From the NCBI GenBank assembly GCA_020186115.1, contig WSYJ01000183.1, positions 62,001-126,000 on the forward strand: a DNA stretch of 64,000 nt, written 5' to 3'. This document shows, piece after piece, positions 1 to 64,000 of this stretch (within the stretch, counting starts at the first letter, position 1; each line of letters starts with the position of its first letter). Under the pieces are notes generated by a model that did not search any database, was not told where the DNA came from, and worked only from the letters and a program-made list of their open reading frames with translations. The translations under genes and the position numbers were made by a program. The stretch is from Histomonas meleagridis (lineage: Eukaryota; Parabasalia; Tritrichomonadida; Dientamoebidae).

Positions 1-1743
1 ATCAATGACAATACGCTTTGAATAACTTCCTTTTTCATCAAAAATGGATACAGTTAGAATGTCAAAAAACACCGGCATGACAAACAAAAGTTTTTTCGAA
101 TTAAAATCATTTTCATTTTCATTCTGGGCTCGTAATAAGTCTCCAATGACTCCATAGATTCTATTACACAAATGCATTGTTAGCGAAGTCGATTGTACTG
201 CGGTTGGATAAAATATGTTAAATGCCCATTTGGAGATAAAATCTAAAACGAATTTATCGTTTTGTTGTGATTTGCTTATGTTATATATGAACGTAATTAA
301 GTTTTCTAAATAGTTTTTGTTAAGATTTGATAATACATTTGCCAAAATTGGTAATATTTGTTTCCACCCCATTTTGTTTGGTATATTCAGAATGGTGTCC
401 TCAGACATTTGCAGTAAAATTTCGGGTACATAAAATGTTTTTGGAAATTTGAAATTGCATTTGAAATATGTATCTTTCGGTTGATGTTTAGTATTGACTT
501 TTAAGTAATCTTTGGGTATGTTTTTGGGGTCGTATAACGTAAATATTCCTTCTTTTTTGGGTGTGTTCAATGGAATGAATCCATATTTGTAAATTGTCGT
601 TTCTTCTTTTTCGTTATTATATAGGTATAACGCAATGATTAAGTGCGCATCTTGTGGGTATTGACCATTAGAATAGATACGTATTATATCTGGAAACAAA
701 ATATTAACAAATGATGATTGAGAAAATGATGTATAACTATTCCGTAATTCATGTCGTGGGCCAATTATGCTTTGTAACCCATTAATTGTTGTGCCTTTTG
801 TTATTTTTATTTGCTCAGTTAAGTAATATGCCTTAAAAAAGAGCTGCGAGTTTTTTGGCGCCGATTCAATTGAAAAGAAGAAATTATAAACGGAAATAAC
901 CGGCGATATTGTTGATTCGAGATTAACAAATGTCAGAGGATCTTCTCCTGTTGACATGTATGACCATTTAGGGCCTTTAGAATCAATGGAAATATTAACT
1001 TTGGATGTGACATCTAAATATGTACAATTAGAATTATACTTGATGGAATTTAAAAGACCGGAATTATAATCATAGCCTGAGACACTGGCCCATGATTTCT
1101 TTTTTCCATTACATTCAAAGTTTGTAGGTAACTTGAAGTTTTTTTCTTTGCTATATATATTAATTGAGGCTACAGCAAAAACTATTTTGCCAACATTCTT
1201 AACTAACTTAGAAAGAAAACATGTAATGCCAATCGATGGGCTCTTGTTATAGACCATATAGATACCTTCATTTGAATTTGGTCGAAATATACATTTGCCA
1301 CCAGACGCAATTTCAAAATAAACAGGCTCACTTACTGGACGCATTTTTTCAAAGTCATATTGAATTAGAAAACCACCATAAATTTCATCAGCCGCAGTTT
1401 GTGGAATATTTATTGTTAAATCAGAAATTTTGACTTTTTCTCCTTCCCACGGTGAACATGGTATAATTGGGTTGTAATTTTTTTTCATGTTTTTTTGAAA
1501 TAATTCTGAAACAATGGTAAAATTATCTTTTTCTTTCTGCTCTTCTTCTTCCTTTAATTGGTTCACTCTATATTGATACTTTTTAGGATTTTCTGTAAAT
1601 GCACCTTTAGCGTATTGTGAATTTGCGTTTAAATGATCGGGAGTTAATTTCACTGTATAATCTGATTCTTGTTTTGGTATTCTAATCAGCCCATCCTCGT
1701 TTTGAAGCGCAGCGAATTCTTCTTCCACCGGGTTAGCTGACAT
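1..1743 (-). CDS. DOCK-like guanine nucleotide exchange factor, N-terminal part (runs off left edge)
   Basis: Open from an ATG at 1743 to base 1 (581 codons, no stop), so the C-terminal part lies outside the window. Residues about 290-430 look like the DHR-1/C2 region of DOCK proteins: a stretch ending in ICTLYDP-like 'l.yd' follows the segment HLIIALYLYNNEKEETTIYK and the dipeptide pattern FIPL, which parallels the 'HLLFTFRHCS...pFaF.L' block of the family. Upstream residues resemble the DOCK 'yMVY...IVFAVASI' strands. The catalytic DHR-2 domain would be in the missing part. DOCK proteins activate Rac/Cdc42 GTPases at membranes and drive actin remodelling; that role is inferred from the family. 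An initiator-like TCATTC lies 25-30 bases upstream. Identification is moderate because the conserved GEF domain is not visible. Confidence 0.55.
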   Translation of the reverse strand, partial: MSANPVEEEFAALQNEDGLIRIPKQESDYTVKLTPDHLNANSQYAKGAFTENPKKYQYRVNQLKEEEEQKEKDNFTIVSELFQKNMKKNYNPIIPCSPWEGEKVKISDLTINIPQTAADEIYGGFLIQYDFEKMRPVSEPVYFEIASGGKCIFRPNSNEGIYMVYNKSPSIGITCFLSKLVKNVGKIVFAVASINIYSKEKNFKLPTNFECNGKKKSWASVSGYDYNSGLLNSIKYNSNCTYLDVTSKVNISIDSKGPKWSYMSTGEDPLTFVNLESTISPVISVYNFFFSIESAPKNSQLFFKAYYLTEQIKITKGTTINGLQSIIGPRHELRNSYTSFSQSSFVNILFPDIIRIYSNGQYPQDAHLIIALYLYNNEKEETTIYKYGFIPLNTPKKEGIFTLYDPKNIPKDYLKVNTKHQPKDTYFKCNFKFPKTFYVPEILLQMSEDTILNIPNKMGWKQILPILANVLSNLNKNYLENLITFIYNISKSQQNDKFVLDFISKWAFNIFYPTAVQSTSLTMHLCNRIYGVIGDLLRAQNENENDFNSKKLLFVMPVFFDILTVSIFDEKGSYSKRIVID

Positions 1744-17464: not shown

Positions 17465-20400
17465 TTAAGCATTGGTGTCATATCTTTCTTTATCAAGAAG
17501 CATTTTGATAATTTCAGTGTGAGCATGTTTAGATGCGAATGTTAGCGCCATTTCAAATAAATTAAATAATTTCCAAATATTATTTTAATTGTTCAATTAT
17601 TTACATAAATATCAAGTAAACAAATTTATATCTTTAGCATTTAAATCAATTTCTTCTTTAAATTTCAAATAAAGCAAATATAGGGTGTTCAAAAAGTCAT
17701 AACCCCTCCTATTTCACTCATTAAAAGGAATTTTATTTTAATTTTTATTTATTTAGTAGAGTGTTTCTTACTGTGCTCAAATGCTTAGTTTAAATTTTGT
17801 AATTATTTTTTAAGGTCATTTTAAAGTTCTGTAAAGCTTATCGGTTTTTTACTGCTTAAAATGCATGTTTTTTAAATCATGCTGATATTTTCTTCTTATC
17901 TTCTTAAGAAGAACTCATGAGTTGAAATTAGTTGATTCGTGTGGGTTTGATACTTATTTGCTTCTTAGGTTCTTCATTTTATTGATTGCAATTTAACCTT
18001 TGAACTTTACAAATGTTTATATGGACAACTATATTTTCCAAATATGGTTTAACCTACATTTATGAATATTAAATTAAATTTCTGCTAATTTTATTTCAAT
18101 AAAATATTATCGATAATAAAAATATATTTTTATTTTGTATCTATAAAGAAATTTTGCAATGTATAAGGGAATTTCCATTTAAGAACATTATCGGCATAAA
18201 TTATTAGATAAAATTCATATTGAGTTACAGATTAGCACTTTATTAGCTTACACACCATATTTTTTAAACTTTCGAACTTAAAAAAAATAACAACAACTTA
18301 TCATGTGTTATTAATAAAATTTTTCTTTGAATCTTTCTTCAGTGTTTCTCTAAATTCATTGGAATGTTATGCTCTTTCATATTCCTGAACAAACGTTGAT
18401 TCATATGTGAACCACTTTCAAACATATTTTCTTAAAAATAAATCATTTCTAAAAACTTTTAATGTTATTTGATATATACTATATTGCTTTTTATTGAAAA
18501 ACTTTTGGTACTACTTGAGGATGAATATTTCTCAAGGATCTTTATGAATGGCTTAATAAAGTTACTATTTGGATCCAAGAAGTAATTTAACTATTTCTGT
18601 ATGACCATTTTTAGATGCCCATATAAGTGCTGTACTAAATATTTTATATAATTTCCAAATATTATTTTCAAATATTAAAATATTAAAATAAACATTAAAT
18701 AAAACACATAAATATTTTTAGCATCAATATCAATTCCTTCTTGTTCAAGAAGTAATTTAACTATTTCTGTATGACCATTAAAAGATGCTAAAATAAGTGC
18801 TGTATTAAATAATATGAATAATTTCCAAATATTATTTTTAAATATTAAAATATTAAAATAAATATCAAATAAAACAAATAAATATCTTTAGAATTGACAT
18901 CAATTCTTTTTTGTTCAATTAGTAATTTTACTATTTCTATATGACCTTTTTTTGATGCCAAAATAAGTGCTGTTTGAAATCTTTTTTGGAATTTCCAAAT
19001 ATTATTTTGGAATACGAAAATATTAAAATAAATATGAATTAAAAAAAGAAAATTATTTTTAACATTAATATGAATACTTTTTTTGAGAAGTAATTTTACT
19101 ATTTCTATGTAACCTTTTTTGGATGCTACAGCAAGTAGTGTATCAAATAATTCAAAAATTTTCCAAATATTATATATAAAATCTATATTATAAATATAAA
19201 TATAAAATAAAACAATTAAAGATTTTGATAATTGATATCAATTTTTTTTTGTTCCAGGATTAATTTGACAATTTCTGTTTTACCATATTTTGTTGCTATA
19301 TATAACGCTTGTTGAAATAATTTGAAAAGTTTCTATATATTAATATGAAACATCGTTATATATGAATGTATCCATTTACTAATATTTTTCAATTCTTCAG
19401 ACTTTAAAAATAATTTTATGATATTGAAATTACACGAATAAACTGCTTTAGTAAAAGGTGTAGAAAATAATATTAATAATTTCCAAATATAATAAGGATA
19501 AGTGTATATTTTGAACATTAATATTAATAGTTTTTTGTTGCAGAAGGATTTCGACAATATCAATATGATTTTTACAAGTTGCAATCATAAGTGCTGTATA
19601 AAATTATTTAAATAATCACCAAAAATAATTTTAAAATAAGAAATTATTAAAATAAATATCATATAAAATAAATGAATATTTTTAGCATTAATATCAATTT
19701 CTTTTTGTTCAAGAAGTAATTTAACTATTTCTGTATCACCTTTTTCAGCTGCAAGCATTAATAATGTGTTAATGAATTTAAATAAATACCAAATATTATT
19801 TTGTAAAGGCGATTAAGTTTAATATACATTCAAAAAGAGTTAAAAACGTCGCATGCATTTAAATTCACACATTCTTCTCCTATATATAAATTTATTATGT
19901 CCATATTTCCTTCTTTATATGCAGATACAAGGGATATTTGAAGTATAATTAATAATATTCATAAATCATTTTAAAAAATTAAATTATAAAAATTTATATC
20001 AATTATTAGAATAAAATATTTTTTCCATTATAAATACAATAATTTTCGAGTAAAAATGATACTTTCATGAAACAGTTTCTAGATGCATACATAAGTGCTG
20101 TTTTAAATAATTAAAATAATTTCCAAATATTATTTTGAAATATCAAATTATTATAATAATTTCTATATAAAGCATATAAAAATTTTTAATATTAATATCA
20201 ATTCCTTCTTGTTCAAGAAGTAATTTAACTATTTCTATATGACCATTTCTAGATGCTATAATAAGTGCTGTATCAAATAATTTAAATAATTTCCAAATAT
20301 TATTTTGTAATATCGTATTAGCAAAATAAACATTAAATAAAACGAATGAGTATTTTTTGCATTAATATCAATTCCTTCTTGTTCAAGAAGTAATTCAACG

Positions 20401-23120
20401 ATTTCTGTAACATTATTCCAAGATGTCATCATAAGTGCTGTATCAAATAATTTAAATAATTTTCAAATATTATTTTGTAATATTGTATTAGCAAAATAAA
20501 CATTAAATAAAACGAATGAGTATTTTTTGCATTAATATCAATTCCTTCTTGTTCAAGAAGCAAACTAACGATTTCTGTATGACCATTTTCAGAAGCAAAC
20601 ATAAGTGCTGTCCAAAATAATATAAATAATTTCCAAATATTATTTTGAAATATCAAATTATTAAAATAATTTCTATATAAAACATATAAATATCTTTAGC
20701 ATTAATATCAATTCCTTCTTGTTCTAGAAGTAATTTAACTGTTTCTGTATAACCTTTTTCAGATGCCCAAATAAGTGCTGTCCAAAATAATATAAATAAT
20801 TACCAAATATTATTTTGAAATATCAAATTATTAAAATAAATATCTTTATCATTAATATCAATTCCTTCTTGTTCAAGAAGTAATTTAACTATTTCTGTAT
20901 GACCATTTGAAGATGCTAAAATAAGTGCTGTTTCAAATAATTTAAATAATTTCCCAATATTATTTTCAAATATAAAATTATTAATATAAATTTTATTTTT
21001 AGCATTAATATCAATTCCTTCTTGTTCTAGAAGTAATTTAACTATTTCTGTATAACCATTTTTAGACGCATACATAAGTGCTGTCCAAAATAATATAAAT
21101 AATTTCCAAATATTATTTTGAAATATCAAATTATTAAAATAATTTCTATATAAAACATATAAATATCTTTAATGTTAATATCAATTCCTTCTTGTTCAAG
21201 AAGCAATTTAACTATTTCTGTATGATCTTTTTCAGATGCCAAAATAAGTGCTGTTCTAAATAATTTAAATAATTTTCAAATATTATTTTGATATCGAAAA
21301 TTTGCACAGAAAACATCATAAAAAACAAAAAAATATTTTTAGCATTAATATCAATTCCTTCTTGTTCAAGAAGTAAACTAACGATTTCTGTATGACCATT
21401 ATAAGATGCTAATATAAGTACTGTCCAAAATAATTTAAATAATTTCCAAATATTATTTTGAAATATTCCAAAATTATTAAAATAAATATCAAATAAAACA
21501 AATAAAAATCTTTAGCATTAATATCAATTCCTTTTTGCTCAAGAAGTAATTTAACGATTTCTGTATGACCTTTTTCAGATGCCCAAATAAGTGCTGTCCA
21601 AAATAATGTAAATGATTTCCAAATATTATTTTGAAATATCAAATTATTAAAATAAATATCTTTAATATTAATTCCTTCTTGTTTAAGAAGCAATTTTGCT
21701 ATTTCTGTGTTATCATTTTTAGATGCATAAATAAGAGCTGTGTTAAACAATTTAAAGAATTTCCAAATATTATTTTGATATCGAAAATTTGCACAGAAAA
21801 CATCATAAAAAACAAAAAAAATATCTATTGCATTAATATCAATGTATTTTATTTCAAGAATTATTTTAAATATTTCAATAATTCCTTTTTCATAGCCATA
21901 ATCAAGTTCAACACTAAATAAATTGAATAATTTTCAAATATTTTTTTTGAATCCAAAAATACGAATATAAAAATTAAATGAAATAAATAATTTTTCTTAT
22001 TTTTATTATTATTGTTTTTGTAATCTAAAATCATTTTAATTATATCCGTGTGATTATTTTCATATGCATATATAAGTGCAGTCCAAAATAATTTAGATAT
22101 GTTCCAAAAATAAAGTTAAAATATCAAAATATTAAAACAAAATTTGTATAAAAGAAATTTATTGATTTATAATTTATATCAATTCCTTTGTGTTCAAGAA
22201 GTAATTTAGCTATTTCAGTATAACCATTGATAGATGCTATAATAAATGATGTAAAAAATATTTTGATTAAACACCAAAAATGCATTTTAATTATTAAAAT
22301 TATCAAATAAACCTTAAACAAAACAATATAATATCATGTGGATTAATATCTATTCTTTTATGTTGAAGAAGTATTTTAACAATTTCAATATCATTTTTTT
22401 GAACTGCAAGTATTAATGAAGTATAAAACAATAGAAAAATTCACCAAACATTAATAAAATATTTTAAACAACTTAAATAAAAATTAAATTCTACAAATAA
22501 AAATTTGCAGCATTAATGTTAATTCTCTTAAGGTTATAAAGTAATTTAACAATCTTAATATATCTTCTTTTTACAGCATCCATAAGTGCTGTCCAAAATA
22601 AGATGAATAAGCTCCAAATTCTAAAAACAATTACCAAATATTTAAAATCAATATTAAATTTGATAAACAAAGATTCACAGCATTAACATTAATTCTTTTT
22701 TGTTGAAGAAGCAATTTAACAATTTTAATGTGATTATTTTTTACTGCTTTTAAAAATGCTGTGTAAAATTTGTTGAACAAATTCCAAATATATATTTAAA
22801 AATTTAAATGATAAAAACAATTTTTCTTCTTATTAAAAAAATATTTTTAGCGTTTATTTTTATTCTTTTTTGTTCAAGAAGTAATTTAACTATATCAAAA
22901 TAACCTTTGCTACTTGCTACAATTAATGGTATATAAAATCATTAAAACAAATTTTATTTCATGATTAGAAACACCAATTAATTAAAACATATTTTAATAA
23001 ATATTATAAAACATATTTAATATTTACATCAATTTCTCCTTTTTCAAGAAGTAATTTAACAATTTCAATATTTCCTGATCTTATTGCTGATATTAAAATT
23101 CTTTTAGGGATTTCATTGTA
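17465..23120 (-). repeat. Ankyrin-unit tandem array A (29 units with spacers)
   Basis: Period about 160-190 bases: a conserved coding half of about 90 bases plus an AT-rich spacer half. Units 20190-21600 are the most alike, with repeated identical blocks (for example 20303-20395 against 20473-20565, and 21281-21335 against 21768-21823), which shows recent duplication or conversion within the array. Edge units (17470-20100 and 21830-23110) are more diverged. Spacer 3' ends share the word ATTTGGAAATTATTTAAATT just before the TAL codons of the next unit. Confidence 0.85.
17666..18575. mobile_element. Insertion splitting an ankyrin unit; mariner-like end at 17683
   Basis: The ankyrin unit stops abruptly near 17665 and resumes near 18577 in the middle of LLLEQ, so about 0.9 kb of foreign DNA separates the halves. 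Near its left edge, after a TA at 17681-17682, is GGGTGTTCAAAAAGTCAT followed by AACCCCTCC, which looks like the terminal inverted repeat of a Tc1/mariner-type element. I did not find the matching inverted end or a transposase. If an element is present it is a short non-autonomous or decayed copy. Confidence 0.3.
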
Positions 23121-23203: not shown

Positions 23204-24178
23204 CTAAAAAAGATAAAATTTCATAATTTTCATAAGTTTAATACATTTCTTTCCTAATTCAGTTAAATCTTCATCTTTATTATAAATACTTTCAAATAAA
23301 TAATAAAATATTTCATTCCGATGAAATTCGATTGCTATTTCTATTGATCCATCAAAGTTCGAATGACGCTGTTCACAATAAAGAACAATTTCAACATTTC
23401 CACCTGCTACAGCATATCTTCCTGTATTTGTTAAATCGACATTATTTAAAATCAAATATTTAAAACATTTAATTGATCCAAAAAATGCTGCATAATCAAC
23501 AAGTGATACATCTTCTTCATTAATGAATGAATATCTTTCATATAATGATGGTTCTATGATTTGTTCAAAATCAAAGTTTGGTTCTGATGAAATTTCATGA
23601 AGTTTTTCTACATCATCGTTTCGTATTGCTTTAATAGTATCTGAAGGATTCGATCCTTCATGAATAAGTTGCTTATGAAGCTTCCAATCATCTTTTCTTA
23701 GCTCTTCGATATCATCAAAAAATTGTTTATGAAATGGAATATCATTTGTTGAATCTTTTAATGCATTAATTTCTTCATCTGTTTTATAATGAATGAAATA
23801 TAATGTCTTAATATTCCTTATAACTTTAGGATTTACCATTTTTTGTTCAATCATATATCCTAAAAGATAATTAGATTCTTGTGTATTTAAATGTATAAGT
23901 AAATTTGTAAAAATAGTAATTATTTTGGAATATTTTGTTGATAATGTTTTCAGAAATTGAATATAAATATTGAGATTTTTATGATATAAAATAAAAGAAG
24001 AGTATATTAATCTACTTAAAATCAACATCGAAGAATAAGGGTAATCAGAATCAAATAATTTTTGGATTAAATCAATTGATTCAGAAATATTGCGTTCTTT
24101 TAGATTAAATATTGTATTTCGCATAATTTTTAGATATTGGATGTATTTTGTTTCCTTTGTTCCTGTTGATTCTTTCAT
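23204..24178 (-). CDS. DUF3447 head of ankyrin locus A (open part, 324 codons)
   Basis: Open frame from the ATG at 24178 to a stop created by the shift at about 23226-23230. Mostly helical: NTIFNLKERNISESIDLIQK, ESNYLLGYMIEQKMVNPKVI, DDWKLHKQLIHEGSNPSD, then the DUF3447 core around residues 205-285. It aligns along its length with the protein at 34619-35905. An out-of-frame ATG frame upstream (24105-24305; MNRDELLYECYRSLKTKKF) overlaps its 5' end and could be the original N-terminus, displaced by a second frameshift. DUF3447 is found in front of ankyrin repeats in trichomonads and has no known function. Confidence 0.65.
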   Translation of the reverse strand: MKESTGTKETKYIQYLKIMRNTIFNLKERNISESIDLIQKLFDSDYPYSSMLILSRLIYSSFILYHKNLNIYIQFLKTLSTKYSKIITIFTNLLIHLNTQESNYLLGYMIEQKMVNPKVIRNIKTLYFIHYKTDEEINALKDSTNDIPFHKQFFDDIEELRKDDWKLHKQLIHEGSNPSDTIKAIRNDDVEKLHEISSEPNFDFEQIIEPSLYERYSFINEEDVSLVDYAAFFGSIKCFKYLILNNVDLTNTGRYAVAGGNVEIVLYCEQRHSNFDGSIEIAIEFHRNEIFYYLFESIYNKDEDLTELGKKCIKLMKIMKFYLF

Positions 24179-25079: not shown

Positions 25080-26267
25080 TGTTGATATTGATTATTCTGA
25101 TAGCAATCATTTGGATAATTATAGGGAACTTCCAAAGAATGATTGGGAACTTCATCAGAAATTAATTGAATAAGGACATAGACCAAATGAAATTGCAAAA
25201 ATAATTCGAAATGATGAAATACATAAACCTCAAGAAATATCATCACAAACAAATTTTAATTTTAATCAAATAATTCCAAAATCACTTTATGAAAGATGTT
25301 CATTTATTAACAATTGGAATGTTACATTAATTGATTATGCAGCATTTTTTGGATCAATTAAATGTTTTAAATATTTATTAATGAATAATGCAAAAGTCAA
25401 AAACGCAGGTAGATATGCAGTTGTAGGTGGAAATTTAGAGATAATTCATTTATGTGAACAAAATCATTCATCATTTGATAAAGCATATGAAGCAGATATT
25501 GAATTGCATCAAAATGATATCAAATATATATATGAAAATAAATTAGAAAAAAAGCAATCAATTCCGAAAATGTCTAAAGATAATTCAAATGATTTGATAA
25601 GTTTTTGTATTAAAAAAGATAATTATGAAATTTTAGCTTTTTTTGAAGAAAAAGGAATTAATGTTAATGCTGATGATATAAACCAATCAGCAAGAAATGG
25701 AAATTTATAAATTCATAAAAAATATTTTGCCATTTGCTTCAAAATCAGGAAATATTGAACATGTGAAATATATTTTAGAGCAAAAAGGAATTGATGTTAA
25801 TGCAAAAACTATTCATTTGAATAATTTAATATATGTTTTAATAATTTGAAATATGTTTTAATAATTTGAAACAGCACTTCATATAGCAGTTAAAAATAAT
25901 AATATAGAAATAGTAAAATTACTTTTAGATAAAGAAGGAATTGATATTAATGCAGAAACTATTCATTTGAATTTATAAAGTTCATTTTATTAAATTGGAA
26001 TTCATTTTAATGATTTTTTATTTATATTAATGATTTGGAGTTAATTTTAATAATTTTATAAACGTTTTTACAATTTTATATTTATTTTAACAATATTATA
26101 CGGCAATTGAAATTGCACAACAAAAAGGATATGTTAGAATAGAAAATTTACTTCGTGAGAAAGGTGCAAAAGAAATTTCTAATTCAAAATCTTTTTCTAT
26201 GAATACCACTTCATGGGTTTTGACAACTTATGAAAATGAAACGTATTTTACAGATTATCAAAAATAA
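25080..26267 (+). pseudogene. Decayed DUF3447-ankyrin gene (plus strand)
   Basis: Homology to the heads of loci A and B begins at about 25110 (RELPKNDWELHQKLIE), is cut by an in-frame TAA at 25171-25173 where the paralogues have Glu, and continues through SLYERCSFINNWNVTLID and the DUF3447 core (YAAFFGSIKCFKYLLMNN). The frame is lost near 25708. Ankyrin units follow: SGNIEHVKYILEQKGIDVNA, then TALHIAVKNNNIEIVKLLL, and a last AIEIAQQKGYVRIENLLREK with a C-terminal tail (FSMNTTSWVLTTYENETYF) ending at a TAA. The units are separated by AT-rich spacers with stops, as in the minus-strand arrays. The last spacer is longer (about 140 bases) and one contains a tandem 20-bp duplication (about 25828-25869). 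Only the 3' part of the head is present. Confidence 0.7.
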
Positions 26268-26904: not shown

Positions 26905-28351
26905 TTAAATATTTACAATATTATCTTCCTTGAAATCTTCTGCAAATGGATCTTCTTCAATATTTTTGATCTTTGTAACTGAAAATGTATCAATATCTTT
27001 GTTTTCATTTGTTTCAAAGCTAATAATACGTTCGCTTTTATTTTGGTTACAAGAACGAACAAGAAAAAGTATAACAAATAATATAATTAAAATGATAGCA
27101 ATTAAAACACAGACAATTATAATGATAAGTGTTTTATCAAATTTATCTTCGTAAATTTGCTCATTTTGTTTAAGGATGGTATAGAAATCTGAATAAAGAT
27201 TAAAATATGCTGAATATTGAACAATTGTATAATTATAATATATGTATTCTGTGATAAAATATGTTAATGATGAGGAAAGCATTGACATAATATATGTATT
27301 CGAAATAAATGTATAATTAACAATCGTTTCGATATATGATAAAATGTATGTTAATGTTAATGAATATGACATTGTATAAAATTCATGAGAATTTCCATTA
27401 TTAAATGCATTACATCGCATAAATGTATTTGATTTAGTAAATGGATTTGATTTAGTATATGTATTTGATTTAGTAAATGGATTTGATTTAGTATATGGAT
27501 TTGATTTAGTAAATGTATTTGATTTAGTATATGGATTTGATTTAGTAAATGTATTTGATTTAGTATATGTATTTGATTTAGTATATGTATTTGATTTAGT
27601 AAATGTATTTGATTTAGTAAATGTATTTGATTTAGTATATGTATTTGATTTAGTATATGTATTTGATTTAGTAAATGGATTTGATTTAGTAAATGGATTT
27701 GATTTAGTATATGTATTTGATTTAGTAAATGTATTTGATTTAGTATATGTATTTGATTTAGTATATGGATTTGATTTAGTATATGTATTTGATTTAGTAT
27801 ATGGATTTGATTTAGTAAATGTATTTGATTTAGTAAATGGATTTGATTTAGTAAATGGATTTGATTTAGTAAATGGATTTGATTTAGTAAATGTTTGTGT
27901 TTGTGGAAGACATTCATCAATTATTCCTTTAAATATATTTAATTTCCCAAATGTTGTTCCTTGATATGATTCTAATACCATAATTTCAATGTCAATTGAA
28001 TCAAAAGCTTCATCAATTTCAGGTTCGGTTTCACCATAAAAATAAAAGCACTTCAGTTGGGTACAACTACTAAATGCATTAGCTTTTATCGATTGTACAT
28101 TTTTCCCGACATATACAGTTGTTAACTTAGAACATTCAAAAAATAAACTTGAAGGAATTAACTGCGTTTAATTAGAAATTGTGAATGTTTTCAAATGCAT
28201 ATGATGGAATTTCTGTAACACCACTTTCAATTATAACATGTTTGGCTACATCTTTATATGTTTCAGCAAAATCATTTGTATTGGTGATTGTGAGTGTATC
28301 GCCTGAAAAACCTTCAAAAGAATTTGTAAAAAACAAGAAAAATATTATTAG
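26905..28351 (-). pseudogene. BspA-like leucine-rich surface protein, broken
   Basis: The C-terminal frame (to 26905) is open upstream to about 28166: one or two TpLRR repeats (QLIPSSLFFECSKLTTVYVG, then NVQSIKANAFSSCTQLKCFY), the family's end piece (YGETEPEIDEAF, ESYQGTTFGKL), a hexapeptide array TKSNPF/TKSNTY of about 26 copies (27421-27893), a transmembrane helix (KTLIIIIVCVLIAIILIILF) and a cytoplasmic tail (EEDPFAEDFKEDNIVNI). The N-terminus lies in another frame at 28172-28351: hydrophobic FLLIIFFLFFTNSFEGF, then TLTITNTNDFAETYKDVAK as in the intact paralogue at 37197. A one-base shift and a TAA near 28160-28175 separate them, and most LRRs are missing. BspA-like proteins are trichomonad surface proteins thought to bind host or matrix ligands. 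Confidence 0.75.
27421..27893 (-). repeat. 18-bp tandem repeat coding TKSN(P/T)(F/Y)
   Basis: About 26 copies of an 18-base unit (plus strand GTAAATGGATTTGATTTA and close variants). Variation is almost limited to the two codons giving P/T and F/Y. Codes the Thr/Ser-rich stalk of the BspA-like pseudogene. Confidence 0.9.
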
Positions 28352-33168: not shown

Positions 33169-34617
33169 CTAAGTTTTATTAATTCCTAGCATTAGATTTC
33201 GAAGTAAATTAGCTATTTCTGTGTGATTTTTTCGCATTGCAAATGTATTTGCTGACCAATTTAATTTAAGTAATCACCAAATTTCCTTTAGAAATTTTAT
33301 ATTATAAAAATAAAGGTTGAATAAATTATTTAAACATTTTTTGCAGTATAATCAATTCCATTTTGTTTAAGAAGTAATTTCACAATTTCAGTGTGACCTT
33401 TATGCGTTGCTGAAATAAGTGCTGTATTAAATATTTTAGATAATTTCCAATTCTTAATTTTAAACACCAAATTATTAAAATACTCCATATTTAAAATAAT
33501 TAAATGTCTCTAGCATTAAAATTAATATTTTCTTGTTCTAGAAGTAATTTGACTATTTCTGTGCAACCATATTCAGAAGCTAAAAAAAGCGCTGTTTTAA
33601 ATAACTTAAATAAATCTTAAATATTATTTTAAGATTTCAAACAAAATAAACAAAGCCCAAATTTATTAAATAAACATTTTGGGCATTAATATTAATTCCT
33701 TCTTTTTCAAGAAGTAACTTGACTACTTCAGAATTACCATTTTTAGATGCTTCCATTAGTGCTGTGTTAAATATTTTATATAATTTTTAAACATCATATT
33801 GAAATATTAAATATTATAAATAAAATTTAATCAAAATATTAAAATATCGTTAGAATTAATTTTGATATTTTTATGTTCAAGTAATAATTTAACTATTTCT
33901 GAATGACCACATCCAGATGCAATCATAAGTGCTGTAAAAAATATTTTGTTTAATTTCCTAATATTATATTGAAATATTAAATTAATAAAAAAGATTAAAA
34001 TTAATATAAAAAAATATTTTTATCATTTACTTTAATATCTTCTTGTTCAAGAAGTAATTTAACTATTTCTACATAACCTCTTAGAACTGCATACATAAGT
34101 GCTGTAAAAAATATTTTAAGTAATTTTGAAATATCATTTTGAAATTTGAATTTATTAATTTAAAATTTAAATCATGTAAACAAATATTTTTAATATTAAC
34201 ATCAATTCCTTTTTGTTCAAGAAGTAATTTAACTACTTCGGTATGTCCATTTAAAGATGCTTGGATAAGTGAAGTATAAAACATTTTAATTAAATTCCAA
34301 TTATTATTTAGAAATATTAAATTATTAAAATAATTTTTAAATTATACCAATATATCTTTTATATTAATATCAATTCCTTCTTGTTCAAGAATCATTTTTA
34401 AAATTTTTATATGACCATTTGCAGATGCTAATTCAAGACTTGTAAAAAATTAACTAAATAAACACCAAATTATAATTTAAAATATTATATTTATGGAATA
34501 AACAATAATAAAATTAAATATTATCTTTAGTATTTGTTACAATTCCTTCTTGTTCGAGAAGTAATTTATATATTTTTGTATGTCCATTTTCAGCAGCTTT
34601 CATCAAAGCAGTTCTAA
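33169..34617 (-). repeat. Ankyrin-unit tandem array B (9 units with spacers)
   Basis: Units at roughly 33185, 33345, 33510, 33685, 33850, 34025, 34195, 34360 and 34530, each about 90 bases and open, separated by AT-rich spacers. Consensus as in array A (for example TALMEASKNGNSEVVKLLLE). Confidence 0.85.
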
Positions 34618-35905
34618 GTTATATAAACATATTCCAAATATTATTTTCAAATATTAAAAAATCAAAATAAACATATTCAGTATTAATATCAATTACATTT
34701 AGGTCTAAAATATATTTTACAAGTTCAATATTTCCTGATTCTGAAGATAATATTAATATATCTGAAGGAATCGGATAAGTTTTAAGTAAATTCTCGACAA
34801 GATATAAATTTCCAATTCTTGATTCTCTGTGTATAATATTTTCACTAGCTTTCACGCCATTTTTTTCTAGAAATAAAAATATTTCATAGTTTCCACTATC
34901 ACTACAAACTTGTAATAATTTTCTAAACTTTTTTTCCAATTTCTTTTCAAATATATAATGAAATATATCATTTTGATGGAATTTAATTGCTGCTTCATAT
35001 GATTCTTTAAATGTTGAATGATTTTGTTCACATAAATGAATGATTTCATGATTTCCACTTGCAATTGCATATTTACCTGTGTTATTTACATTTGCATTAT
35101 TCATAAGTAAAAATTTAAAGCATTTTACAGATGAAAAAAATGCTGCATAATCAATTAATGTAACATGTTTTTGATTAATATATGAATACTTTTGATAAAG
35201 TGATGGTTCAATAAATTGATTAATATTAAAATTTGGTTGTGTTGATATTTCTTGAAGTTTATCAACATCATCATTTTGAATTATTTTGGCAACTTCTAAT
35301 GGATTAACTTCTTCTTTAATTAATTTCTTATGAAGTTCCCAATCATTTTTTGATAGTTTTTCATAATTTAAAATGAATTTTCTGTAATATGAATCATTAT
35401 AATATTTTGTTCTATTTTCAGCTTCTGTTTTACGATGTGCAAAATATTTTGAATACACTTTTTTAATTATGCTTTCATCTATTAAATTAAATTCTATCAT
35501 TTTCTCAAGAATATAATATGATTCTTGTTCTTCGATTTGAGATAAATATCCACTAAAAATTTTAAACACATTTGGATTCTTTTTATTTAATTCTTTTTGT
35601 TGTTTTTGCATTGATTTTAAATATTTTAAATATATATTAAGTATTCCCCTCATTGAAGAAAATGCTGAATAAACAAAAATGCAAACAATTACATTGAATG
35701 AGTGTGGAAAATTTGTATCATATAAATTCATTGTTTGTTGTATAGTATCCTCAAGATTTTCTTCATGTAAATTAAATATTAAGTGTTCAAGTGAATTTAG
35801 ATTTTGCAGATTGGAGAATTGACTGTTAATATCTTTGCAGTCTACTTTTTTTCCACTTTCTTTGAACTGCAAAATAAAATTCTGGTGCCAATTTGAGTAA
35901 CCCAA
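33169..35905 (-). pseudogene. DUF3447-ankyrin locus B, no start codon found
   Basis: The head frame (34619-35905) is open for 428 codons but begins at TTG. The next upstream in-frame codons contain no ATG before a TAG, and the first internal in-frame Met is residue 59. At the place where the paralogue in locus A has its Met (MKES), this gene has Phe (FKES). The head matches locus A along its length (NDWELHKKLIKEEVNP, EPSLYQKYSYINQKHVTLID, AAFFSSVKCFKFLLMNN) and enters its first ankyrin unit (GNIELVKYILDLNVIDINTE). After a spacer with a TAA come nine further units without stops or shifts, the last ending LLRNLMLGINKT and a TAG at 33169-33171. An initiator-like TCACTTTT lies at about 35975 upstream, so the promoter may be intact. 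Either the start was lost or an upstream exon is unrecognised. Confidence 0.65.
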
Positions 35906-37173: not shown

Positions 37174-37196
37174 TTTTTTCTTTGAATATTATAAGA

Positions 37197-40103
37197 ATGA
37201 ATGTTAATTTGGTAATAATATTTATAATACAAACATATGAATTATTCAATAATACAGAGAAAATACTTACAATAACAACAGAAAATGAATTTACAAATGA
37301 ATATAAGAATGATGCATTGCATGTAATAATAGAAAATAGTATCACAAAAATACCACAATATGCTTTTTATAAATGGCTTAATCTGATTTCAGTAGAAATA
37401 GGGAATTCAGTTACTTTAATCGAGAGTTTTGCATTTAATCAATGTGAAATGCTATCAAAAGTTACTTTTGGTGAAAATATTACTGAAATTGGTGAATGTG
37501 CTTTTACTTGGTGCTATTCTCTTCGAACAATTAAAATTCCAAATTTAGTTACTTCAATTAGTATTTGTTTATTCAAAGAATGTAAAAAATTAATAGAAGT
37601 TATTTTGAGTGAAAATATTATTACTATTGATGAGAATGCATTTGATTACTGTATTTCTCTTGAAAAAATTGAAATTCCAAACTTAGTTACTTCAATTAAT
37701 GATTATGCATTTAAAGAATGCTGTAAATTATCAAATATCACTTTCGGTGAGAATGTTATTACAATTGGAAGTTATGCATTTTTTTGGTGTATTTCTCTTG
37801 AAGTATTTGAAATTCCAAGATTAGTTACTTCAATTAGTAAAGGATTATTCAATGGATGTTCTATGTTATCGGAAATTTATTCCGGAGCAAATATTACTGA
37901 AATTGGAAGTTATGCATTTTTTTGGTGTATTTCTCTTGAAGTATTTGAAATTCCAAGATTAGTTACTTCAATTAATCAAAATGTGTTTGAAAGATGTTCG
38001 AAATTATCAGAAATTACTCTAAATAATAAGATTACAACAATTGGAAACAAAGCTTTTTATTATTGCATTTCCCTTGGGTGTGTTAATATCCCTGATTCAG
38101 TCACTCTAATTGATGAAGCAGCATTTCTTAAATGTGAAAATTTATCACAAATTACTTTTGGTATGAACGTAATTACGATTGGTGGGCATGCATTTGGTTG
38201 GTGTGTTTCTCTTACAAAAATTGAAATTCCAAATTTGGTTACATTAATTAATGAATCAGCATTTGAAAGTTGCTCTATGTTATCAGATATTATTCTTGGT
38301 GATAATATTAAAACAATAGGAAAACATGCATTTTCTTATTGTGTTTCTCTTGAAAGAATTAAAATCCCAAATTCAGTTACATCTATTGATAAAGCAGTGT
38401 TTGCAGGATGTTCCAATTTGTTAGAAGTTATTCTCAGTGAAGTTATCACATTAATTTTTAATTATGAATTTTATCAATGTTTTTCTTTGAAAACTATTAA
38501 AATTCCTAAATCAGTAACTATAATTGGTGAAGGTGCTTTTGAAGAATGTTCTGATTTATTAGATGTTAATCTTGACGAAAATATTATTTCAATTAATAAG
38601 TTCGCTTTTACTCTTTGTATTTCTCTTAAGAATATTAAAATTCCAAATTCTTTAACCATAATTAATGAAGCTGTTTTTAAAGAATGTTCTAGTTTATCAG
38701 AAGTAATTATTGGAGAAAATATTAATATAATTGGAAAGTTTGCGTTTACTCTATGCATTTCTCTTAAGAATATTAGAATTCCAAATTCAGTAAATAAAAT
38801 CGAAAGAGGCGCTTTTATGAAATGTTATAATTTAAAAGAGGTTATAATCGATGAAAATGTGGTTATAATAGAAAAATATGCATTTGATCAATGCACTTCT
38901 CTTGTTTGTATTTATTATTTTGGACAAACAGAACCAGAAATTAATGAATTAGCATTTAGTGGTGTAATAGCACAATATGTAATGACATTATATTCATATA
39001 ATTCAACAAAATTCGGATCATTAAATGTATCTGTTGGAAGAATTATAGACGATTGCTTTCCACAGCCAATAACGTCAAATATACAATCAAAGACATTTGC
39101 ACTCCCAAATAATGTTTCTCAATCAAATCCATCAGCAAAACCAAATAATTCAACGAAATCAAATCCATCAGCAAAATCAAACACACTGGCAAAAACAAGT
39201 CAAACATCTCATACAAATCCATCAGCAAAATCAAATAATTCAACGAAATCAAATCCATCAGCAAAAACAAGTCAAACATCTCATACAAATCCATCAGGAA
39301 AATCAAATAATTCAACGAAATCAAACACACCGGCAAAAACAAGTCAAACATCTCATACAAATCCATCAGCAAAAACAAGTCAAGCATCTCATACAAATCC
39401 ATCAGGAAAATCAAATAATTCAACGAAATCAAACACACCGGCAAAAACAAGTCAAACATCTCATACAAATCCATCAGCAAAAACAAGTCAAACATCTCAT
39501 ATAAATCCATCAGGAAAATCAAATAATTCAACGAAATCAAACACACCGGCAAAAACAAGTCAAACATCTCATATAAATCCATCAGGAAAATCAAATAATT
39601 CAACGAAATCAAACACACCGGCAAAAACAAGTCAAACATCTCATACAAATCCATCAGCAAAAACAAGTCAAACATCTCATACAAATCCATCAGGAAAATC
39701 AAATAATTCAACGAAATCAAATCCATCAGCAAAAACAAGTCAAACATCTCATACAAATCCATCAGGAAAAACAAGTCAAACATCTCATACAAATCCATCA
39801 GCAAAATCAAATAATTCAACGAAATCAAATCCATCAGCAAAAACAAGTCAAACATCTCATACAAATCCATCAACAAAATCAAATAATACATCGCAATCAA
39901 ATAAATGTATAAAATCTAATGTATCTCATCCAAATAAATTTACACCAAAAGTACCCACAAAATCAAACTCTAATTCATCAAACGCAACAAAGATTATTAT
40001 TTGTATCTCTGCACCTGTTATAACTATAATTTTTCTAATAATTCCTTTAATAATTACAAAATTTCGCTTACGAAGAAATCAAAGTATCTTAGAAGAATAT
40101 TAA
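37197..40103 (+). CDS. BspA-like leucine-rich repeat surface protein (intact)
   Basis: 968 residues from the ATG at 37197 (five codons after a TTG that I do not accept). A hydrophobic N-terminus (VNLVIIFIIQTYELF) may act as signal peptide. Residues about 45-600 are TpLRR/LRR_5 repeats with a 23-residue half-period, for example LEKIEIPNLVTSINDYAFKE and CCKLSNITFGENVITIGSYA. The end piece FGQTEPEINELAFSG and KFGSLNVSVGRIIDD precedes a Ser/Thr/Asn/Lys-rich stalk (about 640-900). A transmembrane helix (KIIICISAPVITIIFLIIPL) and a short basic cytoplasmic tail (KFRLRRNQSILEEY) end the protein. This is the standard layout of trichomonad BspA surface proteins, thought to mediate adhesion. It ends 13 bases before the convergent gene. 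Confidence 0.88.
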   Translation: MNVNLVIIFIIQTYELFNNTEKILTITTENEFTNEYKNDALHVIIENSITKIPQYAFYKWLNLISVEIGNSVTLIESFAFNQCEMLSKVTFGENITEIGECAFTWCYSLRTIKIPNLVTSISICLFKECKKLIEVILSENIITIDENAFDYCISLEKIEIPNLVTSINDYAFKECCKLSNITFGENVITIGSYAFFWCISLEVFEIPRLVTSISKGLFNGCSMLSEIYSGANITEIGSYAFFWCISLEVFEIPRLVTSINQNVFERCSKLSEITLNNKITTIGNKAFYYCISLGCVNIPDSVTLIDEAAFLKCENLSQITFGMNVITIGGHAFGWCVSLTKIEIPNLVTLINESAFESCSMLSDIILGDNIKTIGKHAFSYCVSLERIKIPNSVTSIDKAVFAGCSNLLEVILSEVITLIFNYEFYQCFSLKTIKIPKSVTIIGEGAFEECSDLLDVNLDENIISINKFAFTLCISLKNIKIPNSLTIINEAVFKECSSLSEVIIGENINIIGKFAFTLCISLKNIRIPNSVNKIERGAFMKCYNLKEVIIDENVVIIEKYAFDQCTSLVCIYYFGQTEPEINELAFSGVIAQYVMTLYSYNSTKFGSLNVSVGRIIDDCFPQPITSNIQSKTFALPNNVSQSNPSAKPNNSTKSNPSAKSNTLAKTSQTSHTNPSAKSNNSTKSNPSAKTSQTSHTNPSGKSNNSTKSNTPAKTSQTSHTNPSAKTSQASHTNPSGKSNNSTKSNTPAKTSQTSHTNPSAKTSQTSHINPSGKSNNSTKSNTPAKTSQTSHINPSGKSNNSTKSNTPAKTSQTSHTNPSAKTSQTSHTNPSGKSNNSTKSNPSAKTSQTSHTNPSGKTSQTSHTNPSAKSNNSTKSNPSAKTSQTSHTNPSTKSNNTSQSNKCIKSNVSHPNKFTPKVPTKSNSNSSNATKIIICISAPVITIIFLIIPLIITKFRLRRNQSILEEY
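39118..39900 (+). repeat. Tandem repeat of the BspA stalk (NPSAKTSQTSHT / SNNSTKSN modules)
   Basis: Two alternating modules: a 36-base unit coding NPS(A/G)KTSQTSHT and a unit coding SNNSTKSN(P/T). The copies are almost identical, so the array is young. Because no unit contains a stop in several frames, long shadow frames run on both strands; they are not genes. Confidence 0.9.
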
Positions 40104-57291: not shown

Positions 57292-57292
57292 C

Positions 57293-57363
57293 TCGCTGAC
57301 CGGGAATCGAACCCGGATCACAGGAACGACAATCCTACATGATAACCATTACACTATCAGCGA
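57293..57363 (-). tRNA. tRNA-Asp (GUC)
   Basis: 71 bases on the minus strand. The seven-base acceptor arms TCGCTGA and TCAGCGA pair perfectly. The anticodon arm TAGGA/TCCTG holds the loop TTGTCGT with anticodon GUC. The T arm is CCGGG-TTCGATT-CCCGG. The internal promoters (A box TAGTGTAATGG, B box GGTTCGATTCC) are present. The discriminator and CCA are not encoded. No intron. Confidence 0.95.
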
Positions 57364-62636: not shown

Positions 62637-64000
62637 TTATGTTGAAGCATTCTCTAGAAATAATTGAACTATTTCATTATAATTTTTTTCACATGCAAGT
62701 ATAAATGCTGTATTAAATGTTTTAAATGATTTCCATAACTTATTTTTAAATTTTATATTATTTAGTTAAACATCAAAGTTTTTAAGCGGACATCACGAAT
62801 ATTGATATCAATACCTTTTTGTTCAAGAAGTAATTTCACTATTTCAGTAAAACCATTTGCAGATGCTATCATTAAAGCTGTCCAGAAAAATAGAAATAAT
62901 TTCCATATATTATTTTTGAAACAGGATAAAATAATTGAAATAAATTTTAAATGAAAAAAATAAAAATTTTTTGCATTGATATCTATTCCTTCTTGTTCAA
63001 GAAGTAGTTTGACGATATTTGTGTAACCTTTTGCAGTTGCGATCATAAGTGCCGTTTTAAACAATTACTATAATCTCCAAATATTATTTTTTGAATATTA
63101 AACTATTAGAATATATTTTAAATTAAAAAAATAATTTCCTTTTTCATTAAAAATGATATCATCTCGTTTAAGTAGTTCTTTAACTATTATATAATTACCA
63201 TTATCACAAGCAAGCATAAGCGATGTTTCAAATATTTTGATTGATTTCCACATATTATCTTAAAATATAAAATTATTTAAAGAAATTTTAAGTTAAATAA
63301 ATAAAGAGCTTTATCATTGATATTAATTTCTTTATGCTTGAGAAGTAATTTAACAATTTCTATATAATTATTTAAAACAGCTATTAGAAGTAATGTTCTA
63401 TATAAAATGAATATATTTTAAATACATTCGTAAAACATTAAATTATTAAAATAAATTTTAATAAAAACGAATAAATATCTCGATCATTAATGTCAATTCC
63501 TTCTTTTTCAAGAAGCATTTTAACTAATATAGTATTGCCATTTTCACATGCAAGCATAAGTGCTGTTTCAAATTATTAAGATATTCTTCAAAAATTTTTA
63601 TGATATATCGAATTATTAAATAAAGTATTAAATTGGATAAATTAATATTTTTGTCATTGAAATCAATTCCTTTTTTCTCAAGAAGTAATTTTGCTATACT
63701 ATTATTTCCATTTTCAGCTGCAATCATAAGTGCTGTGTTAAATAATTTTAATAATTTCCAAATATATTCATTTAATGAGAAATATATAAAGCAAATAATA
63801 AATAAAAGAATAAAACATCTTTTTTATTGAAATCAATTCTTTTTAGACCAAGAAGTAATTTGATGACTTTTTCATGATTATTTTGAGATGCAATCATAAG
63901 TGCTGTTTGAAATAAATAAAATTATTTCCAAATATTAATATTTAATAAAAAAATATTAAGATAAACATTTAAAAGAACAAATAAACATTTATTGCATTAA
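62637..64000 (-). pseudogene. Ankyrin locus C: 8 spaced units, continuing past right edge
   Basis: The stop at 62637-62639 follows the last unit (FILACEKNYNEIVQLFLENA, then ST). Eight units are read at about 62645, 62790, 62975, 63135, 63310, 63480, 63645 and 63825, with a ninth starting at the edge. All are free of stops and shifts (for example TALMIASANGFTEIVKLLLE, TALMIAAENGNNSIAKLLLE). The spacers are AT-rich; one (62889-62972, 84 bases) stays in frame, others contain stops. The head domain must lie to the right of the window. I class it as interrupted because a plain reading cannot join the units, but it may be a spliced gene like loci A and B. Confidence 0.65.
62637..64000 (-). repeat. 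Ankyrin-unit tandem array C
   Basis: Same unit-plus-spacer layout and same strand as arrays A and B, more diverged between units than the centre of array A. Confidence 0.8.

Follow-up and report, generated by a model that had tools for sequence, protein, structure and literature searches.

The 64,000-nucleotide stretch of the Histomonas meleagridis genome analysed here (contig WSYJ01000183.1, positions 62,001 to 126,000; hereafter the window) carries on its minus strand a long array of ankyrin units that are separated from one another by spacers. When a protein profile of the unit was run against stop-to-stop fragments, 29 minus-strand units were recovered between 23,096 and 17,468, in agreement with the initial annotation of this DNA; the count includes two weak rows (19,854, E value 1.2, and the fragment at 17,636, E value 0.9, which is the second half of a split unit) and excludes three short weak ones (23,145; 23,057; 17,235). 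A stop-to-stop fragment is necessarily open, and we therefore re-read all 28 codons of every unit in frame and found 28 of the 29 units to be open, the exception being the unit at 18,550-18,633, which is interrupted by a 917-base pair (bp) insertion; the earlier statement that no unit holds an internal stop or frameshift and that one is split by an insertion is thus borne out. The gaps between matched unit parts are mainly 86, 87 or 89 bp, with a few of 66 or 69 bp. Their earlier description as often 80 bases long refers to this same spacing, with the flanking codons assigned to the unit. The array and its gene comprise the following features.

17468..23096, minus strand: spaced ankyrin array of 29 units (profile search, 28-codon reading, selection within the array)
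Units 1 to 7 in 5' to 3' order, matched parts, minus strand: 23022-23096, 22849-22929, 22679-22762, 22509-22592, 22342-22422, 22172-22252, 22014-22082
Units 8 to 14, minus strand: 21829-21894, 21664-21741, 21514-21597, 21341-21424, 21174-21254, 21001-21084, 20851-20931
Units 15 to 21, minus strand: 20698-20781, 20528-20611, 20358-20441, 20191-20271, 20063-20101, 19854-19931, 19684-19764
Units 22 to 27, minus strand: 19517-19597, 19393-19461, 19231-19308, 19079-19135, 18893-18973, 18720-18803
Unit 28, split, minus strand: 18577-18633 and 17636-17659
Last unit, minus strand: 17468-17548
20612..20697, minus strand: example spacer of the 86-bp class, between units 20698-20781 and 20528-20611
20782..20850, minus strand: 69-bp gap between units 20851-20931 and 20698-20781, of the 66-bp class if the unit is taken as 84 bp (to 20848)
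23204..24178, minus strand: N-terminal open reading frame (ORF) of the main array gene, 324 residues, DUF3447 (PF11929)
17660..18576, minus strand: 917-bp insertion dividing unit 28
17465..17467, minus strand: stop codon immediately after the final unit (...DTNA, then stop)

The ORF at 23,204-24,178 loses its frame near the 3' end, a loss that the initial annotation does not mention, so that either this copy is apparently damaged or the assembly is wrong at that point, and because of this loss together with the insertion at 17,660-18,576 we regard the gene of the main window array as probably inactive. Sequence similar to the insertion was found neither in the window nor in the other collected array stretches. 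Within the array, 11 unit pairs show no nonsense differences against 9.7 expected, and 43 synonymous differences against 25, and stops are not depleted in the other two frames.

The spaced arrangement recurs widely in the genome of this parabasalid of the Dientamoebidae. In the searched assembly (43.28 megabases (Mb), 121 contigs), matches to a spacer motif of 26 bp, ATATTTGGAAATTATTTAAATTATTT, number 5,161 when at most 3 mismatches are allowed, compared with 2 for a reversed control, a figure that counts the motif only, and among the matches listed adjacent positions are frequently 170 bp apart. A 37-bp stretch from the class of spacers made of an exact minisatellite has 1,850 genome matches and none in the control. 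At 170 bp each, the ATATTTGGAAATTATTTAAATTATTT class would by arithmetic amount to ∼2% of the genome, and 170 bp per repeat is close to the nucleosome repeat. Among 314 collected spacers of at least 60 bp, 191 contain ATATTTGGAAATTATTTAAATTATTT, in a sample that is not random, many of the collected stretches having been picked by this very motif. For the published assembly of virulent H. meleagridis, the available text of the genome paper gives 43.4 Mb and a GC content of 28.66% (PMC8529796).

The sample analysed below consists of 37 array segments with 358 units; 33 segments come from outside the window, whose main array was counted as two, and arrays of fewer than 4 units, three ordinary ankyrin regions and a plus-strand array in the window were left out. 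Where the full order of a gene is visible, an N-terminal ORF in frame with the first unit is followed by spaced units and by a last unit that bears its own stop, of which TATQIAHQKGYTEIVNVLRE, TSIQIAQEKGYTEIVNLLVKKV and TAFTHASKKGNIDIINILEKYK, each followed directly by the stop, are examples. In 20 of the 37 segments the first detected unit is preceded by 150 or more open codons (8 of these 20 run off the stretch), and 22 of the 37 end, by reading, in a cap-like final unit with its own stop and non-spacer sequence. The spacers between 84-bp units (n = 321) measure 86 bp in 189 cases, 69 bp in 45, 66 bp in 29, 87 bp in 10, 89 bp in 7 and 106 bp in 7, with the remainder varying up to 306 bp, and 234 of the 321 fit a 20-bp grid. 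This grid arises because the spacers are built from a 20-bp minisatellite, TATGTTTTAATAATTTGGAA, which is almost exact in one spacer class and, by reading, degenerate in the other. The repeat includes TAATAA and its length of 20 is not divisible by 3, so that every frame acquires stops once at least three exact copies are present. Copies of the 86-bp spacer differ on average at 29 of 86 positions, and their constant length looks as if indels were rare or selected against.

Lesions and selection were compared between units and spacers across the 37 segments, as the initial annotation had proposed. Of 344 units of at least 60 bp, 8 carry a non-triplet indel and 7 a stop, which in at least 2 units is a natural cap stop, and 32 of 41 in-unit indels are divisible by 3. 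The strongest test concerns internal units that lie behind frame-breaking or stop-bearing spacers, paired by the similarity of the following spacer and with expected counts derived from the substitution spectrum of the spacers; the first unit of each array, units carrying a non-triplet indel and spacers of other lengths were dropped beforehand, leaving 224 distinct internal units, 199 of them qualifying, in 80 pairs, 55 of which are between arrays. Nonsense differences in these pairs number 2 compared with 58.9 expected. Over all codons there are 615 nonsynonymous differences (655 expected) and 184 synonymous ones (110 expected), giving an omega, the ratio of the two observed-to-expected ratios, of 0.56, and over core codons 141 (390 expected) and 86 (73 expected), giving an omega of 0.31 (bootstrap 0.24-0.41) that is biased low in a manner discussed below. 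Stops in the wrong frames exceed expectation by ratios of 2.0 and 3.9. With an independent pairing, we counted 0 nonsense differences against 18.8 expected for the window segments together and 8 against 65.6 for the other 33 arrays. The spacers, by comparison, lie in each frame near the expectation from their own spectrum (frame 0: synonymous 0.125 versus 0.127, stops 0.116 versus 0.168 expected).

Two earlier calculations used other pairs. A site-based measure on the core codons of 32 pairs gave a ratio of nonsynonymous to synonymous differences per site (pN/pS) of 0.44 and no nonsense differences, and the first pooled random pairs gave a pN/pS of 0.87, with 0.51 and 1.18 in the wrong frames, a comparison that is uninformative. 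Diversifying selection on surface codons is not claimed, the site-based ratio being 1.6 (32 pairs) and the spectrum-based ratio 0.66 (80 pairs). Together these data indicate that the units are under purifying selection although they stand behind frame-breaking or stop-bearing spacers, and the comparison favours coding units with untranslated spacers. Pooled over arrays, the units are not neutral satellites or pseudogenes without protein constraint; single arrays may be dead. Duplication of an already spaced unit, raised earlier as a partial explanation, has indeed taken place, with a period of 170 bp, but it fails to account for the constraint, since units that were paired kept their frame even where their spacers had diverged.

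The borders between unit and spacer are held in codon phase. Among 317 spacers, the 5' border motif ATT(T/C)ATTTG is in phase with the unit in 262 of 278 confident cases (a count that resolves ties toward the expected place, and that becomes 230 of 243 without 35 ambiguous cases) and the 3'-side motif ATTT in 267 of 277. A boundary rule that keeps the frame thus exists for most copies, contrary to the view in the initial annotation that no single rule does so in all of them. That ATTT is found at both borders, as with short direct repeats, proves little in sequence so rich in A and T. The codon directly before the first Thr of the unit is a stop in none of 179 cases, compared with 21.5 predicted from its own base composition, and the codon at -9 to -7 in 36 compared with 33.8; on the other side of the unit stops begin at +7 to +9 (8 versus 9.2 expected). 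In the 69-bp class a further variable codon (Asn, Lys, Glu or Asp in most cases) precedes ATTTATTT or a close variant, which places the coding border at this point or just beyond it; the class constitutes an independent one-codon insertion class in which the phase is kept.

We do not favour the in-frame 69-bp spacers as coding linkers, their stops numbering 26 against 26.5 expected. Translation of the spacer in the -1 frame or via a frameshift was rejected, since the frame of the following unit is fully open in only 33 of 92 spacers, and since exact-minisatellite spacers (three or more 20-mers) by reading have stops in all frames. A position-independent count over the 92 spacers gave 109 stops in the following unit's frame compared with 146.6 expected, a mild deficit. 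The mapping of stops and the substitution pattern support the conclusion that the spacers are not translated.

In position tables of 172 and 164 nonredundant borders, which include a few rows from ordinary ankyrin genes, no GT...AG or GTAYGT-type 5' site was found at fixed places, confirming the earlier remark that the spacers are free of GTAYGT and ACTAAC signals, and one spacer of a 46-bp class contains no GT at all. Nor is the fused branch/3' motif (R)CTAACACACAG present at the spacer borders; CTAACACACAG itself, the 3' motif of the genome's ordinary introns, has 11 exact genome matches versus 4 in the control, compared with thousands of spacers. These absences are meaningful because the ordinary introns of the same genome carry GTATGT...CTAACACACAG, whereas the spacers have neither motif at fixed places. 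By reading, the loci L051, L053, L057 and L058, and probably L059, contain ordinary-looking introns with a GTAT-type 5' end, an internal inverted repeat and CTAACACACAG at the 3' end; sequence downstream in L059 is, by reading, kinase-like. A 3' splice site at ACAG was rejected, ACA and GCA varying synonymously and to Ser or Pro as coding Thr-Ala does. RNAalifold returned no consensus structure for 92 nonredundant 86-bp spacers, the one exact-minisatellite spacer that was folded forms an internal hairpin (no shuffle comparison), and conservation within the spacers is highest in TTTGGAA and at a few A's close to the 3' end. A U2 small nuclear RNA (snRNA) is present in the genome; Rfam gave no match for U1 snRNA, which is uninformative since the control genomes gave none either. 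The Rfam scan of the window produced one match, a tRNA at 57,292-57,363, and no group I or group II intron or known ribozyme.

Given these observations, we consider it somewhat more probable than not (roughly 0.55) that the arrays are mostly multi-exon genes rather than decaying satellites and that their spacers are excised at the RNA level without use of the usual signals. The first exon would encode an N-terminal DUF3447-type domain and the first ankyrin unit, a series of short exons would each supply one ankyrin unit of ∼28-33 residues, and the last exon would provide the capping unit and the stop, with untranslated spacers of roughly 17 + 20n bp lying between them. We infer that transcripts exist, that the spacers are removed from them and that the removal is by splicing rather than by ribosome bypassing, along a route that would not use the ordinary GTATGT/CTAACACACAG signals of the species and for which RNAalifold revealed no conserved fold; a spliceosome reading very degenerate T/A-rich sites and a separate activity are the candidates. 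Because the borders are in phase and the spacers are made of a 20-bp minisatellite, recombination within a spacer could gain, lose or shuffle units without damage to the frame, and a large family of ankyrin binding surfaces would in this way be able to diversify. From the initial annotation's proposal of non-canonical introns we thus retain coding units and untranslated spacers, with the term intron itself kept conditional. A bolder version is possible but doubtful, namely that more than 5,000 minisatellite-built intervening sequences form a new class, which would have no GT-AG, branch motif or conserved fold, would be excised from between ankyrin exons by something other than ordinary splicing and would act as frame-neutral joints for recombination in a large and variable repertoire of ankyrin proteins.

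Relatives of these genes exist both with and without spacers. The parabasalid DUF3447 (PF11929) ankyrin proteins have an N-terminal domain and repeats of the same family, and two such genes in the Histomonas genome (L076, L078) and a predicted T. foetus protein (P0022) have repeats without such spacers. One N-terminal domain had 28 database matches, of which P0001-P0019 and four more were examined. P0013 and P0018 are H. meleagridis NCBI proteins named 'cask-interacting protein (caskin) 1,2'; P0018 ends elsewhere, but P0013 breaks off at the first spacer, so that some genes of the spaced family may be truncated in public annotation. The sequence of P0015 continues across a spacer of this type into a cap unit, and in P0007 a single junction (SKNVMFESALM) lacks a spacer. 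No high-identity unspaced donor copy appears among the matches listed (150 of 9,568 candidates scored), which are only 51-65% identical to the query, so that none of them offers a donor to explain the constraint on the units. Joined-unit relatives or retrocopies were not found among the matches listed, and the spacer motifs had no match in IMG/VR. We found no description of spaced ankyrin genes in the accessible text of the open-licence literature on the Histomonas genome and introns or on ankyrin. The word ankyrin is absent from the available text of the genome paper (PMC8529796), and a proteomics study, in the part available, quantified a protein named KANK1 with ankyrin repeats (PMC10063853).

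Several observations weigh against RNA removal in multi-exon genes. No recognised removal signal was found at the spacers, the published annotation comprises 573 introns with at most one per gene according to the available text (PMC8529796), and the gene of the main window array looks broken. Elsewhere, 17 of the 37 segments have no long N-terminal frame beside the first detected unit and about 15 have no clear cap, some being cut by the end of the stretch and some broken. The 189 of 321 spacers that are identical in length despite a divergence of about one-third show a constancy that an intron need not require, 23 of 41 distinct 69-bp spacers are open in frame, and at L077 (G000:C116:380117-380347) a 162-codon frame remains open through three units and their spacers. 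The core omega of 0.31 is biased low because the core codons were picked after their variability had been seen, and the earlier site-based pN/pS over all codons in the 32 pairs was 1.14 (0.90-1.48), because the surface codons vary so much. As to relatives, 15 of 17 'ena' sequences end at or within ∼50 residues after the first unit, and 7 of the 15 do so with KDI or a close variant; if their contigs, most of which measure 1.3-2.4 kb, were transcripts rather than genomic DNA, they would speak for retained spacers. Finally, joined units sought in the protein database had no match above 62% identity among the 120 of 5,148 matches listed, a weak search because, to judge from one control protein, that database lacks proteins derived from Histomonas transcripts.

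Some of these points would be expected if the arrays were silent, with a product that consists of the N-terminal domain and the first unit and stops in the first spacer, and with downstream repeats that are an untranscribed or untranslated satellite or a recombination reservoir. The N-terminal ORFs seen do end in or near an early spacer, as do 15 of the 17 'ena' relatives and the annotated P0013 at or soon after the first unit, and the tandem 170-bp homogeneity resembles a satellite; yet silence leaves unaccounted for the purifying selection on internal units in the unit frame only and the many arrays that finish in cap units with their own stops, and an unspaced donor family was not found among the matches listed, so that we hold it to be unlikely, if still a serious competitor.

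The other explanations concern the way in which the spacers are passed over. Spliceosomal introns of the ordinary kind but with strongly degenerate sites, one form of RNA removal in which TTAAT near the 3' end would be a weak YTAAY and the 5' end ATATTT-like, appear improbable: the genome has U2 snRNA and canonical introns, and the better conserved spacer positions include A75, A76 and A79 close to the 3' end, but GT occupies no fixed place and is missing altogether from the 46-bp-class spacer, the 3'-side ACAG acts as coding Thr-Ala with ACT, ACG, Ser or Pro variants, and the ordinary introns found retain clear motifs. Spacers that are AT-rich, mostly frame-breaking, not GT-AG and in codon phase might also be kept in the messenger RNA while ribosomes hop across them, a translational bypassing that reportedly occurs in phage T4 gene 60 and in the mitochondrial byps of Magnusiomyces, whose gaps are likewise said to be untranslated, AT-rich and non-triplet inside reading frames. 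The spacers differ from those elements in that matched take-off and landing codons are lacking at the positions tried (identical in 20 of 214 distinct spacers versus 18.0 in shuffles, for one codon-position pair), that they are nuclear and reach up to 306 bp, and that they are many per gene; a long array would need at least a dozen hops, and we rate bypassing as slightly less probable again than degenerate spliceosomal introns. Excision of the spacers from the DNA in some life stage is very improbable, the precise borders being the only point in its favour, and parabasalids are not known to have nuclear dimorphism.

Removal of the spacers from RNA, the reading that we prefer, has partial parallels in known systems. 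The type A/B spliceosomal introns of T. vaginalis are intervening sequences in protein genes of the same phylum, and type A introns, at 56-196 nt in the comparison with T. stableri, overlap the spacers in length (PMC12316389, available text). These introns, 63 of them active, have GT/AG, an extended 5' motif and a fused branch/3' motif in that account (PMC12316389), whereas the spacers have none of these and number in the thousands. The non-conventional introns of euglenids and diplonemids, in the accessible parts of PMC12621601, PMC6221363 and PMC4770533, have non-canonical variable borders, are removed in a way that is not understood and stand beside ordinary introns; non-canonical borders are found in the spacers as well. 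They are, however, described as pairing end to end (PMC12621601, available text), which contrasts with the lack of a consensus fold in the 92 spacers examined with RNAalifold, and unlike them the spacers share descent and a 20-bp minisatellite and belong to one gene family as far as seen.

The window contains three further spaced arrays.

34619..35905, minus strand: open N-terminal ORF of a second gene, 428 residues from TTG, DUF3447; includes the first unit, 34682-34756, and ends in the first spacer
33351..34612, minus strand: spaced units of the second gene, matched parts open (profile search)
Units of the second gene, minus strand: 34535-34612, 34363-34443, 34195-34275, 34025-34105, 33855-33935, 33682-33765, 33512-33595, 33351-33425
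33169..33255, minus strand: C-terminal cap unit of the second gene with its own stop (SANTFAMRKNHTEIANLLRNLMLGINKT, then stop)
62649..63906, minus strand: third spaced array, 8 units, C-terminal cap TAFILACEKNYNEIVQLFLENAST followed by its stop; the 5' side runs past the window edge
25588..26166, plus strand: fourth array, short, downstream of an N-terminal fragment with stops; outside the 37 analysed segments

The two N-terminal ORFs in the window score 37.6 and 27.9 bits against PF11929 (DUF3447), for which the Pfam cut-off is 26.9, and for further study the second gene, at 33,169-35,905, is better suited than the main window copy beside it. The plus-strand region 25173-26166, with its N-terminal fragment and short array, looks decayed and is a possible neutral control. 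Two other repeat-bearing ORFs lie in the window: the minus-strand ORF 26905-27981 contains an 18-bp tandem repeat of 26 copies (27420-27894) and a C-terminal hydrophobic stretch, with more than one frame open on the same strand, and ORF 37182-40103 has a 72/108/180-bp tandem region rich in Ser, Thr, Asn, Pro and Lys and a C-terminal hydrophobic stretch, and is one that we take, from its sequence alone, to be of the BspA-like leucine-rich-repeat kind.

Should the spacers stay in the RNA, coding selection on units with a broken frame would need a new explanation. If they are removed, a lineage counted as poor in introns (573 annotated) would hold ∼9 times as many intervening sequences of one kind alone (5,161 motif matches), which would bear no known signal, and the recognition of non-canonical introns would be testable in a cultured protist for which a genome and RNA data are public. 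Much of the large ankyrin gene family of Histomonas may in that case be annotated in truncated form or not at all.

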